In this document: in pieces, positions 49,010 through 55,982 of the stretch
Layout of the letters: each line of letters opens with the position of its first letter
Position numbering within the stretch: the stretch's first letter is position 1
Assembly (NCBI GenBank): GCA_016788785.1
Contig: JAEUSM010000011.1
Coordinates: forward strand, 143,200 to 207,199
DNA length: 64,000 bases
Direction: 5' to 3'
Source of the DNA: Candidatus Kapaibacterium sp.
Lineage (GTDB): Bacteria; Bacteroidota; Ignavibacteria; Kapaibacteriales; JAEUSM01
Notes under the pieces: generated by a model
What the model saw: only the letters and a program-made list of their open reading frames with translations
Told to the model about the DNA's origin: nothing
Database searches by the model: none
Program-made: the position numbers and the translations under genes

Positions 49010-50211
49010 TCTATAACTGATGCAATAATGGAATCAAATGAAGCATAAATTGAATCCCATGTATGATTGGATTCAATGAGTGTTCTTGCTTCTGTGGATA
49101 AAGTTTGTGCCAACGTTGGAGATTCTAACAACCTACAAACACTATAATGCATAGTATCAACTGCTTCGGCAATGAGTACATGTTTTGAATCTATTGCTGA
49201 TATTCCTTGAACACCAGAAACAGTTGTTACTATAGGAATTCCCGTTGCCATAGCTTCAATAATTTTATTCTGTATACCAGTTGCACCTGCATGAGGATGA
49301 ATAAACACCAAATGAGAATGTAAAAACGGCACAACATCCTCTACATTTGCATACAACGTAACAAACGGAATTTTTTGTAGGTAACGTTGCAGTTGTTTGG
49401 AGGGATTTCCTCCAACGATTGATAGTGCAAAGTCAGGAAACTGCTTCCTCACTTTAGGTATAATTACATCGACGATATTCCTCACCATCATTTCATTTGC
49501 CCATACATCTAATTTACCAACGAACAATCCATTTTTTCTATCCGATGAATATGGCGTATAAGTGAATCTATTTTGATCAAATCCATTGGATAACAATGCA
49601 TACTTAGCTTGAGGATTCACTGAAGAAACGAAAGAAATATCCTCATTAGTAACGAATGTGTTGCAATCAAAATTATTCATCACATTTTGTTCATAATTCA
49701 GCAACTTTCGGTATTCCCACGAACGAATGAGTTTTTGCAAAAAGTTCCTTGACGCAGAAGCTGAGCGATATTGATATTCGTAACGACAATCTTCAGCAAT
49801 GAGAACTTTGGGAATTTCTTTGTTTCGAATGTATTCAGCCGTTCGCATAAAAAACGCAATTGCAAGATCAAAGTGTTGGGTTTTCATCAATATATCAACC
49901 GTTTTTTTCATAGTAGGTTGAAGGTAATACAACACCTCCAAAGGCTTTGATCCTAAAAACGAAAAAAGAATTGTTGTTAGTGATGTCAATAGTGATAATC
50001 GAATTGGGATAACCTTAACACCCAATGTAGTCAAATGGCGTACATACTCTTCCAAATGTCTATCGATACCCTGATATACACACACTAAGGTTACATCGTG
50101 GTGTTGAGCCAAATGTTTCAAGAGATGATATGGTTTGATTCTGTCTCCACCGACCAACGGAAACGGAAACCTACAAGTTAGAAATAAAATGGAGAGCGGT
50201 TTTATTGCCAT
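49006..50211 (-). CDS. Glycosyltransferase family 4/1 protein (GT-B fold)
   Basis: This 401-residue protein (from the ATG at 50211) has the GT-B two-domain layout. The N-terminal domain starts SILFLTCRFPFPLVGGDRIK, the usual beta strand and GG loop. The C-terminal nucleotide-sugar domain has GLFVGKLDVWANE and HPHAGATGIQNKIIEAMATG, with the family Glu in NKIIEAM. It moves a sugar to a glycan or lipid. It resembles the family of colanic-acid or exopolysaccharide enzymes that begin with a statement of PFP and GG, but the product cannot be named. The longer frame to 50283 overlaps the helicase gene by 82 bases; the ATG at 50211 overlaps it by 10 and is preferred. It is coupled to the HAD gene (ATGA). 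Confidence 0.85.
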   Translation of the reverse strand: MAIKPLSILFLTCRFPFPLVGGDRIKPYHLLKHLAQHHDVTLVCVYQGIDRHLEEYVRHLTTLGVKVIPIRLSLLTSLTTILFSFLGSKPLEVLYYLQPTMKKTVDILMKTQHFDLAIAFFMRTAEYIRNKEIPKVLIAEDCRYEYQYRSASASRNFLQKLIRSWEYRKLLNYEQNVMNNFDCNTFVTNEDISFVSSVNPQAKYALLSNGFDQNRFTYTPYSSDRKNGLFVGKLDVWANEMMVRNIVDVIIPKVRKQFPDFALSIVGGNPSKQLQRYLQKIPFVTLYANVEDVVPFLHSHLVFIHPHAGATGIQNKIIEAMATGIPIVTTVSGVQGISAIDSKHVLIAEAVDTMHYSVCRLLESPTLAQTLSTEARTLIESNHTWDSIYASFDSIIASVIE

Positions 50212-53165
50212 TGAACATTTGGAAGAAGGTCTATTAAACGGGAGTATTGTTCTGAATATTGAAACATTGTTGCTGAACCACACAGTACAAAATACTCTTT
50301 GGCTCGAGTTATAGCAACATTCAATTTTCTATCAATTTCCATTCCATCTATAGTGGAAATTGATTGCATGGTATTCCATTGTTCTGCGGAAGTAATTGGC
50401 ACACAATAGAAAATGACATCGCGTTCAGAACCTTGAAATCGTTCAACGGTATCAACATCTATCAACTCGACGTTTTTTGATGCAAAGTGTTGAAGTATGG
50501 TATGGTTGAATTTTCTAAATGGAGTAATTACTCCAATACTAAAACATGGAGTATACATTGTAAACTGTTGAATCATTGTATCTAACAACTTCAATATTTC
50601 TTCATCCATCGAACTATTCTCAGGTTGAATATTACAAAAAATCGCTCGAGATTGCAGGAAGTACTGTTGCAACAAAGTAGAATTTCCAAAAAGTTGTTGC
50701 TTCGAGGTTTGTGTAGCTTTAAGTGTGGTTAACTGCTGACGATAATTCATGGTATTTGCCAATTGCTGAATATCAACATGCATACGTCCTTGTTCTTTAA
50801 GCATGGCAATGCAATGTGTCCAGTTATTCTGTTTTGCGTTATGAAGCAAACGGGAAAACAACGATTCTGACAAATCCTTTAGACCAATCGAGTGTAAATC
50901 TTTTGAATTAACTACTGTTGAATCTTTTGGTTGTACAACAATTGCAGGAAGTTGTTTTTCATCACCGATAAAAATACATCGTTCACAAAATGATGCAATT
51001 CCAATACAATATGCTTCCACAATTTGGGCTGCTTCATCAAAAATAGCTGTTTGAAATTTCCAAAACAACAAAACTTCTGGGTTTGAGGCAATAGATGCAA
51101 CAGTTGAAATGCAAATTCGCTTTTTAGCTAAGAAAGAGGAAATTTGTCTAACTTCAATAGTAGTAACCAAATTTGAAAGTAAGTATGGAGTTATTTCAGT
51201 ATTTGCCGTCGAACCCATACGAACCATTAACTCCTCAAACCCTAATCGTACCACCAACGAACATAACTCATCAACAACCTTATTGGTGTATGCAACTATT
51301 AAGATTGTCTCATCAGTATTTTCAATAATGCTTTTAACTATTTCCGCTAATACGACAGAAGTTTTGCCAGTTCCAGGAGGTCCTTGAATGAGAAAATAGT
51401 CATGAGAGTTGATAGCACCTTCTATAGCTTCGATTTGTGATGTTGTTTTCCCTTCAAGTGAAATTGTATAGCTTCTTTGAGAATTTTTCTTTGGTTGAGT
51501 TTGACCCAATAGAATCGATTGCTTTTCCTTGGAACAATAGAGAATATTCGACAAAAGTTTCGTATACATCACTGAAACTGAACGTTGAGTCGAATCAATT
51601 TCAATACACCATAAAGACTGATAATATTTCGAAAACAAATAGTTTGACGTCGTAAAAAATTGCTGTAAGTGTATATGTGTTTTTGAAATGGTTTTAATTG
51701 TTGCCTTAAGAAGGGGCATACTTTCAGGTCGAATTCCTTGAGGATACACCAAAACGGAATCACCAACTCGAAAGGAAGTTTCTCGTTCAGAAAGAACTTT
51801 AAATTCTATTGCACCTAATTGCCAATTTTGAAGTTTCAATGAATCAAAGAAATACAAACTTTGACGTTTTTCAAATTCGGTAAGAAAGAAAAACAACTGA
51901 GATTTTTTTTCTTCAATTCGACCATTTCCAATGACAAAAGTAGAAACTGCAGATTCTTGTTCCAAAAAATAGACCATTGAACGAAAATATAGCAACAACA
52001 GACTTGAACTCGAAGCATATTGAGATTGAATTGCAGTATATTCTGCTACAGAATAGGACGGCAATACTCCTAATTCGTTTTGTAATAAGGCAGAATGGAA
52101 AGAAAACTTTTTCGCGATAATTTCTAATTTAGAAACTACAATTTTGTTCCTCACCTCCAAACACACTCGTTTGTACATAGTTGTTATAGGAACAGAACGT
52201 AAGAAGTTCTCAACTTCAGAGGCATATAAAATAGAATGCCGAATTCCTTTTTCAGGATAAACAGATTCAAGTAATAACTGATAGCATACTACTTGAATGA
52301 AATGAGAACTCCACATAGTTGATGGATATCGAATTGAGCGAAAAAAGAAATTCCCATTAAAGCTAGGTGCTTTGGAAGATTTTAACTCAACGACCTCTAT
52401 AATTGGAACATCAGAATGGACATTCATATAATCCAATCGACCAACAATACTATAATCCCTTGATACAAATTGCGGTTCTATACTAATTGCATCCTTTGGT
52501 AAAAAAGGAATTTTGGTAGACAAGGAATGAAACAATTCCAATCCTTTGTAAAACACCATATCCAATTGGGATTGGTTTTCATCTTCTGATTTGGATAATT
52601 GCAACAGTGCTGGTATTAACGGTTTTGAACGTAAAAACTGCTCAAAAGTAACTGTATACTCTTTGGAAGAATCTAAGAGCAAATCGTCAAAAATTGCATT
52701 TGCCAACGAACCAATAATCATTGGAAGTGACAATGAAATTGGAACCATCACATCAAAATACCCTAGATTAGTATTGATTTCATTGTCCACAACACATTGC
52801 ACTATGTCTGTTACGCTAATTAACCAATCAGGTTCAATAATTAGAATGGATTCATGTGTAAATTGCAGTTGAAAGAAAGCAGGAGTTTGTTCGACAATTG
52901 AAGCATTCAAACATTTGATATTCAATGCTTCAGTGACATCTTCAAACGTTTTTTGAAATTCTAAAGAATAAGTGATTTCTATAGTTTCAGCTGATGAACC
53001 TATCCCTTTGACAACACCAAGAGTAGTTTTAGTCGCTTTAAAATGAGAATGTACTATTAGAGTACATGTTATGAGAGAATTTTTCGGCTCCAATTGATTA
53101 CAACCGTTCGAATTACTCTTCAGAAGGACGGATATCTTTAATGCGAATTTGTGGTGACATACCAC
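50202..53165 (-). CDS. Dna2-like nuclease-helicase (Cas4/RecB-type nuclease plus superfamily 1 helicase)
   Basis: This protein of up to 987 residues has a C-terminal superfamily 1B helicase with GPPGTGKTS (Walker A, about 590-600), AIFDEAAQIVEA (Walker B), GDEKQLPAIV (motif III), VERFQGSERDV (motif V) and VAITRAKEYFVLCG (motif VI). The N-terminal half contains a Cas4/RecB-type PD-(D/E)XK nuclease with GRLDYMN, VVELKSSKAP and QVVCYQLLL (about 235-290). This combination is that of eukaryotic Dna2 and some bacterial relatives. I see no clear iron-sulphur cysteines. The first 200 residues are unrecognised. The start is uncertain: a GTG at 53165 overlaps recJ by 53 bases, and a TTG at 53093 lies after it. 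It is in an operon with recJ. Confidence 0.85.
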   Translation of the reverse strand: MVCHHKFALKISVLLKSNSNGCNQLEPKNSLITCTLIVHSHFKATKTTLGVVKGIGSSAETIEITYSLEFQKTFEDVTEALNIKCLNASIVEQTPAFFQLQFTHESILIIEPDWLISVTDIVQCVVDNEINTNLGYFDVMVPISLSLPMIIGSLANAIFDDLLLDSSKEYTVTFEQFLRSKPLIPALLQLSKSEDENQSQLDMVFYKGLELFHSLSTKIPFLPKDAISIEPQFVSRDYSIVGRLDYMNVHSDVPIIEVVELKSSKAPSFNGNFFFRSIRYPSTMWSSHFIQVVCYQLLLESVYPEKGIRHSILYASEVENFLRSVPITTMYKRVCLEVRNKIVVSKLEIIAKKFSFHSALLQNELGVLPSYSVAEYTAIQSQYASSSSLLLLYFRSMVYFLEQESAVSTFVIGNGRIEEKKSQLFFFLTEFEKRQSLYFFDSLKLQNWQLGAIEFKVLSERETSFRVGDSVLVYPQGIRPESMPLLKATIKTISKTHIHLQQFFTTSNYLFSKYYQSLWCIEIDSTQRSVSVMYTKLLSNILYCSKEKQSILLGQTQPKKNSQRSYTISLEGKTTSQIEAIEGAINSHDYFLIQGPPGTGKTSVVLAEIVKSIIENTDETILIVAYTNKVVDELCSLVVRLGFEELMVRMGSTANTEITPYLLSNLVTTIEVRQISSFLAKKRICISTVASIASNPEVLLFWKFQTAIFDEAAQIVEAYCIGIASFCERCIFIGDEKQLPAIVVQPKDSTVVNSKDLHSIGLKDLSESLFSRLLHNAKQNNWTHCIAMLKEQGRMHVDIQQLANTMNYRQQLTTLKATQTSKQQLFGNSTLLQQYFLQSRAIFCNIQPENSSMDEEILKLLDTMIQQFTMYTPCFSIGVITPFRKFNHTILQHFASKNVELIDVDTVERFQGSERDVIFYCVPITSAEQWNTMQSISTIDGMEIDRKLNVAITRAKEYFVLCGSATMFQYSEQYSRLIDLLPNVQWQ

Positions 53166-54816: not shown

Positions 54817-54876
54817 GTTACCGCACCCCTTTAATTAAATAATTACCACCAATTTACGAAATTTCTCGTATATACG

Positions 54877-54884
54877 CAAAAATA
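54877..54884 (-). promoter_or_regulatory. Likely -7 element of recJ
   Basis: The minus strand reads TATTTTTG, a perfect TAnnTTTG, about 60 bases before the TTG start at 54816. The palindrome at 54885-54902 is immediately upstream. Confidence 0.5.
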
Positions 54885-54902
54885 TGTGTATTTTTATACA
54901 CA
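54885..54902. promoter_or_regulatory. Palindrome in the recJ/rsgA divergent region
   Basis: TGTGTAT-TTTT-ATACACA is a perfect 7-bp inverted repeat directly upstream of the recJ -7 element, and within the region upstream of rsgA. It could be an operator for either gene; no T run suits it as a terminator. Evidence is position and symmetry only. Confidence 0.4.
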
Positions 54903-54981
54903 CTTTTTACGTTTTATATCATATTTTTTCGCAAAAGGATACCTATAATCAGTAGTAATGATAATTTTTTCGAATTAGAAA

Positions 54982-55982
54982 ATGAACACTTTTCTGATAG
55001 AATTAGTAAAAAATCTAAGTCAAAAACGAAAAGAAAAGACGCATTTACAACCACAGATTCCGAAAGATTAGAAGGGAAAGTAATAGCTTCAAAAGGAAGA
55101 TTTTGGTGTGTAGAAACAAAAAATGGTCTTTATGATTGTGAAGTCGCAGGAACTGTCGTGTTTCCTGAAAACGACGGTTCTTTAGTCGTAGTTGGTGATT
55201 TGGTGGAAATAATAGTCGACGAAGTTACCCCATTTACTGGGAAAATTGTAGTTATTCATCCAAGAAAAACAAAATTGTCTCGAACTGCTGCTGGAAAAAA
55301 CAGTAGAATTGAACAAGTGATTGTTGCTAATGTTGATCAATTAATCATTATGGTTGCAGCAGATGACCCGGCTTACAATACTCGATTTATTGATAGGATG
55401 TTGATATCTGCATCCAAAGGAGATTTGGAACCAATACTATTTATAAATAAATGCGAATTAATGCCCTTAGATTTTTTACAAGAAGATTTAGAAGAATATT
55501 TCAAATTACTGAAAAATAATATTCACATTTTTTCTTTAGAAAAGCAATTGTATTGTGATTCGCTGTTAGATTTTTTTACCGCCAAAACAACTGTCGTCGC
55601 AGGACCATCAGGTGTTGGCAAAACCACGTTGGTTAATTTTTTGCTCGGAAGCAATGTAATGAAAACAGGAAGTACAAGTAAAAAATGGAAAAAAGGTAAA
55701 CATACAACTTCCTCTGTGACCTTACTTCCCTTACCTAATAATGGGTATATTGTTGATACTCCTGGAATACGAGAATTATCAATTTGGTCTATTGATACAG
55801 AAGAGTTAATGTATTATTTTGATGAATTTGAAGAAGTACGGCATCGTTGTCGTTTTGCTACTTGCACCCATAGACATGAGCCAGATTGTGCAGTTATAGA
55901 AGCCGTTGAAAATGGACTCATTTCTGAACGAAGATATGCCTCATATGTAATTTTATTTGAAGAAATCGAACAAAAAAGTTAA
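54982..55982 (+). CDS. rsgA: Ribosome small-subunit GTPase RsgA, with apparent frameshift near its N-terminus
   Basis: RsgA is a circularly permuted GTPase that matures the 30S subunit. The OB-fold part reads LEGKVIASKGRFWCVETKNG from about 55068. It is followed by NKCE (G4), GPSGVGKTT (G1), VDTPGIREL (G3) and the zinc knuckle CTHRHEPDC. The whole frame from 54843 to 55982 is open but contains no in-frame ATG, and the first GTG (55158) would lose half of the OB fold. The only ATG with coding sequence after it, 54982, is one base out of frame. A -1 slip at A AAA AAT (55008-55014) would join it to rsgA, giving about 333 residues. The cause may be an assembly error, slippage or an unusual start. 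Confidence 0.85.

Follow-up and report, generated by a model that had tools for sequence, protein, structure and literature searches.

The gene for the small-subunit assembly GTPase RsgA lacks an ordinary start codon in the 64,000-nucleotide stretch of Candidatus Kapaibacterium DNA analyzed here (the window). On the forward strand, the frame encoding the GTPase domain is open from position 54843, immediately after a TAA stop (54840-54842), to its own stop at 55980-55982, and both a direct reading of the sequence and the list of open reading frames (ORFs) place no ATG, GTG or TTG in this frame before GTG 55158, in agreement with the original prediction. On balance, codon usage and alignment to the closest relative support, without proving, the view that translation in the rsgA frame begins before both an out-of-frame ATG (54982) and the A6T heptamer (55008-55014) at which the two frames had been proposed to join by a -1 slip. 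We regard as probable, though far from certain, that rsgA has a genuine, lineage-specific AUH start, consisting of an AUA or AUC codon within 54918-54948, with AUA 54945 or AUC 54948, behind the sequence AAAAGGA, as the favored candidates. Three components of this reading we infer, namely that the bases are right, which AUH codon is used and that expression is low.

The rsgA frame and its 5' end among relatives

The body of the gene is intact. The frame contains no stop codon, and its product matches the RsgA_GTPase family (PF03193) at 163.4 bits, against a cut-off of 30, with the match spanning protein residues 104-281 and all of the domain (positions 1-174 of 174), which places the protein within the family; no other match in the genome exceeds the family cut-off. 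The region N-terminal to the GTPase domain, which we take to be the OB fold, also lies within the rsgA frame and aligns with relatives, and the stretch from the upstream stop to the first conserved part of the protein holds no canonical codon, the arrangement expected of genes with AUH starts. Counted from the favored AUA codon, the position of which we infer, the gene would span 54945..55982 (+) and encode 345 amino acids plus the stop, with MISSNDNFFELENEHFSDR as the predicted N-terminal peptide. Provided that the sequence is right, gene callers that accept only ATG, GTG and TTG would place the RsgA start at GTG 55158, at the cost of part of the N-terminal domain.

The neighboring gene, recJ, which encodes DHH, DHHA1 and RecJ_OB domains, is divergent from rsgA. 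In the ORF list the recJ frame (- strand, 54816) begins with TTG, and recJ may also have a non-ATG start. Adjoining it is a gene for a helicase-like protein of 987 amino acids with AAA_11 and AAA_12 domains (50202-53165, - strand), the 5' end of which overlaps the 3' end of recJ.

Matches to rsgA are present in 115 of the 123 genomes of the order, this genome included, and a scan of genome contigs with 55158-55979 as the query returned 30 loci with a best identity of 46%, among records that may omit the window's own genome and others close to it. The 5' ends were surveyed in 111 of 114 matching relatives, the other three having partial or split matches, using known frames for 66 short loci and treating 45 longer loci separately. 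Two loci are cut by a contig end and hold no canonical codon in the remaining part, leaving 109 uncut relatives. When codons were counted if in frame and upstream of the region aligning with 55068, all 109 were found to hold a canonical codon (ATG in 85, only GTG or TTG in 24), the presence of such a codon not being proof of its use as a start. As far as seen, the lack of a canonical rsgA start is private to this genome among the relatives examined, which are order-level relatives from outside its genus and family. An AUH-only 5' end, the pattern expected of a conserved weak start such as those of ccpN and cvfC1, occurs in 0 of the 109 relatives, which gives no indication that an AUH start has been selected for; as the case of citZ illustrates, conservation of a weak start is not required for a gene to be counted among those with AUH starts.

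Among the relatives, family f2 is distinctive in that 16 of its 22 uncut rsgA loci hold only GTG or TTG in frame, against a baseline of 8 of 76 ORFs without ATG but with GTG or TTG in their first 60 codons (seven 20-kb stretches from five f2 genomes), the two counts being unmatched and the related genomes not independent. Across fourteen 20-kb stretches of relatives from the order, the first 60 codons hold ATG in 129 of 146 ORFs, only GTG or TTG in 13 and none of these in 4. A weak rsgA start is perhaps usual in family f2, and we regard this as a lead.

The genome comprises 2.97 Mb in 18 contigs, with completeness rated at 99.45%, low contamination and a GC content of 33% in a 464-kb sample made up of the window and loci L095-L114. 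Using codon log-odds trained on 203 ORFs of the same genome, rsgA among them, we measured, for 291 non-overlapping ORFs of this sample, the coding-like signal that precedes the first canonical start. The gene ranks first, with 15.2 bits over 67 codons (median, 0.47), and the one further ORF with more than 10 bits runs antisense to a long ORF, truncated by the end of a sampled stretch, which we take to resemble DNA polymerase III alpha. Once this antisense shadow is dropped, rsgA is the only one of 290 ORFs above 10 bits, the next two scoring 7.0 and 6.7 bits, in a survey that is blind to frame breaks with a canonical codon shortly after them. There is no indication that this genome relies on non-canonical starts in general, rsgA alone standing out among the 291 ORFs. 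All 203 long ORFs hold a canonical codon in frame, a weak count since rsgA also passes by way of GTG 55158, and both TTG and GTG codons occur close to the 5' end of infC. Frequent indel errors are unlikely, because the assembly is near complete and such gaps are rare among the sampled ORFs. No 16S gene was found in the assembly, which would fit a short-read draft.

Coding signal and candidate start codons

Codon log-odds are negative in all three frames over 54918-54944. In the rsgA frame (frame 0), the score is -0.45 over 54945-54968, 2.53 over 54969-55007, 2.12 over 55008-55067 and 9.03 over 55068-55157, against 0.07, -1.08, -1.36 and -3.65, respectively, in the frame of ATG 54982. Frame 0 is the best of the three frames over the last three of these stretches, and the first, where the ATG frame has the higher score, offers it no support. 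In 15-codon intervals, frame 0 leads at starts from 54948 to 55068, and the ATG frame is slightly ahead at 55083 and 55098 despite holding a stop there. Upstream of the heptamer, the coding-like frame-0 segment FELENEHFSDRIS (54969..55007, +) aligns without gaps, in a fixed register, with FDEEDSALSDSLS of the closest relative, G008, at a BLOSUM62 score of 24; the other two frames score -6 and -7 (stops scored as X), and the next best register scores 4. This score is reached by 14 of 20,000 shuffles, for a segment that was picked after the alignment had been seen, and the match to G008 begins at 54969 in one search and one codon later, at 54972, in another. Alignment with the N-terminal segment of rsgA is less clean for two further relatives, G116 and G117, than for G008. 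A pooled test of 54945-55007 against the N-termini of 45 relatives, which are variable and charged, is not significant for frame 0 (z 1.21) and gives z -0.28 for frame 1 and z 2.02 for frame 2 (stops as X).

The favored starts are the adjacent in-frame codons ATA and ATC (54945..54950, +), and the in-frame AUH alternatives are ATC 54918, ATA 54921, ATA 54939 and ATT 55002. Codon scores after 54939, 54945 and 54948 fall in the 56th to 64th percentile of real N-termini (58th and 64th for 54945 and 54948), and those after 54918 and 54921 in the 17th and 19th. The Shine-Dalgarno-like sequence AAAAGGA (54933..54939, +) holds the only GGA (54937) between 54900 and 55059. Measured from its first G, the spacing is 8 nt to ATA 54945 and 11 nt to ATC 54948; both values fall in the 7-13 nt range where GGA peaks before the ATG starts of this genome (36 matches over 224 starts), a modest Shine-Dalgarno signal. 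AUH codons at a normal Shine-Dalgarno-like distance are thus available at 54945 and 54948, with no support from the start-context matrix. This matrix ranks 54945 at 55 of 105 frame-0 codons (23rd percentile of real starts) and 54948 at 85 of 105 (9th percentile), and it rates the out-of-frame ATGs at 54958 and 54982 higher (28th and 38th percentile). The matrix is non-discriminating, since A-rich stretches inside the gene receive its top scores.

Further upstream, a leader dyad, ATGTGTATTTTTATACACAC (54884..54903, +), resembles an element located just upstream of rsgA in G008, G116 and G117, where the GTGT...ACAC dyad precedes the rsgA ATG by 12-15 nt. A leader element shared with these relatives would place the start near 54918/54921, against 54945/54948. 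When the dyad pattern was modeled afterwards, with the window included, one instance with <=2 mismatches was found in the window against 0.31 expected. The shared dyad is a possible promoter or operator. In family f9, GTGT..ACAC is present in three more of 12 rsgA leaders, and TTGACA and CTGACAC repeats precede rsgA in several leaders. A consensus scan returned three sigma-70-like sites against 1.6 expected. Upstream of genes in the 464-kb sample, TATAAT is rarer than in mononucleotide shuffles (32 vs 75.6) and TAnnTTTG is commoner (71 vs 29.8), a combination that we take to be the Bacteroidota-type promoter pattern. The TATAAT at 54944-54949 is therefore doubtful as a -10 box. Exact instances of TAnnTTTG are absent from the rsgA leader.

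Alternative explanations for the missing start

Among the options that the original prediction had listed, the rare start codon is the one preferred here, and slippage, which had been its headline, is not supported; a sequence error near the true start, outside the A6T run, is a possible rival. According to the slippage reading, translation begins at ATG 54982, opens a frame encoding MNTFLIELVKNLSQKRKEKTHLQPQIPKD (54982..55071, +; stop at 55069-55071) and enters the rsgA frame by programmed -1 frameshifting or transcriptional slippage at the A6T heptamer (55008..55014, +). The coordinates of the ATG, of its stop one base out of the rsgA frame and of the heptamer hold, and a single -1 slip does yield, by arithmetic, a protein of 333 residues, as had been estimated. 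In the ATG frame the heptamer reads A AAA AAT, a slippery sequence for -1 frameshifting, and lies where the two ORFs overlap; the context of ATG 54982 is ordinary, at the 38th percentile of real starts and better than that of ATA 54945; and close to the rsgA start of G117, away from the place of the heptamer, there are A-rich runs that include A7. Against this, the rsgA frame is already coding-like and aligned with G008 before either the ATG or the heptamer is reached, where the ATG frame shows no coding signal (-1.08 vs 2.53 bits for frame 0 over 54969-55007). The comparison with related genomes that had been proposed as a check also went against slippage, the three nearest relatives (G008, G116 and G117, read by eye) lacking the heptamer at the corresponding site. 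Heptamers of this kind are, moreover, frequent by chance: A_AAA_AAN is present in 514 of 7680 off-frame 29-codon stretches and some X_XXY_YYZ (Y = A/T) in 1248 of 7680, a rate of 7-16% in comparable stretches. No stimulatory structure was detected over 55015-55114 by a fold test that covers structures other than pseudoknots (z -0.23, with equal or greater stability in 72 of 200 shuffles). The peptide MNTFLIELV, read in the ATG frame before the slip, has no likeness to relatives beyond that of shuffles in the pooled test (z 0.23), and the corresponding nine residues of frame 0 are no more informative there (z -0.06). We judge both the ATG-frame ORF and the heptamer to be chance occurrences. Based on codon score, the alignment to G008, chance frequency and fold, we reject slippage at A6T, which appears extremely unlikely, together with a missing A in this run, an option disfavored because the preceding ATG frame neither scores as coding nor resembles relatives. 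No frameshift mechanism is needed whether the sequence is right or in error.

A sequence or assembly error elsewhere is the main rival, although we hold it to be the less likely reading. A single-base substitution, deletion or insertion close to the true start could hide an ordinary ATG, and the candidate positions are the start codon itself and the T6 runs at 54924-54929 and 54965-54970. Such an error would be in keeping with a missing start seen in one genome only, with the location of the out-of-frame ATG 54958 just before a T6 run and near the first residue aligned to the relative, and with an assembly that, as in a short-read draft, has no 16S gene; it is harder to reconcile with 99.45% completeness in 18 contigs, with the occurrence of such a gap in one of 290 sampled ORFs, and with the lack of a GGA at the usual spacing from ATG 54958 (21 nt). 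Were it the cause, the missing start would be a small annotation artifact. The private nature of the change, with all 109 uncut relatives keeping a canonical in-frame codon, would also fit a recent and real loss of the start by mutation that has left RsgA function greatly reduced or absent (a hypomorphic or null allele), but decay is not apparent in the rest of the frame, which is free of stops and gives a full-length RsgA_GTPase match, the only one above the cut-off in the genome, and we consider a crippled allele improbable. More improbable still is initiation at AUU 55002, which would produce the compact, basic N-terminus MSKKSKSKTKRKDAF: most of the aligned segment 54969-55007 would then fall outside the protein, and no GGA is present at the usual spacing, even though basic N-termini are common in relatives and the context score of this codon (1.27, 33rd percentile) is above that of ATA 54945.

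Relation to known non-AUG and frameshift systems

Several bacterial genes start naturally at AUH codons. According to one report, infC and ccpN of S. aureus start with AUA, cvfC1 with AUU and citZ with AUA in strains of one lineage; reporters of ccpN, cvfC1 and citZ were expressed in poor medium at about 10% of the AUG level, and the ccpN reporter at up to 30% of it in rich medium (PMC13009471). A second report gives AUU as the start codon of E. coli infC and pcnB and describes IF3 as discriminating against its own start (PMC9410913). The gene rsgA resembles the genes with AUH starts (infC, pcnB, ccpN, cvfC1 and citZ) in lacking AUG, GUG and UUG where one would be expected while the gene itself is intact, and in having an in-frame AUH codon preceded by a purine-rich, Shine-Dalgarno-like stretch, which in rsgA, unlike in those genes, is short. 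Like the AUA of citZ, confined to one strain lineage, the change in rsgA is not common to the relatives examined, whereas the weak starts of ccpN and cvfC1 are conserved and have experimental support and the start of rsgA is private and predicted from sequence.

Under the preferred reading of a genuine AUH start, rsgA would be an ordinary gene of full length, translated throughout in its own frame from a near-cognate codon. The initiator tRNA would read this codon with a third-position mismatch, resulting in weak initiation that, by analogy, would be open to discrimination by IF3 and lead to low RsgA output; rsgA would thus be weakly translated, in the manner of infC or ccpN. RsgA matures the decoding center of the 30S subunit. 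A natural AUA or AUC start could conceivably tie the synthesis of this 30S-assembly GTPase to 30S/IF3 stringency, constituting an infC-like feedback on ribosome assembly. We regard this as a speculative and quite improbable extension, in favor of which, and of recurrent weak rsgA starts, the 16 of 22 family f2 relatives with only GTG or TTG were counted. A literature search on titles and the opening parts of abstracts returned no publication on the start codon of rsgA, which does not establish that none exists. With a correct sequence, rsgA would represent a new case of natural non-AUG initiation outside model organisms.

With dnaX-type genes, which undergo -1 programmed frameshifting, rsgA shares an X_XXY_YYZ heptamer in the overlap of two ORFs. 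It departs from them in that its downstream frame is coding-like upstream of the slip site, in that the heptamer is not in place in the three nearest relatives, and in that no stable structure follows it. Compared with the RsgA (YjeQ) small-subunit assembly GTPases, rsgA differs here in its start codon only.
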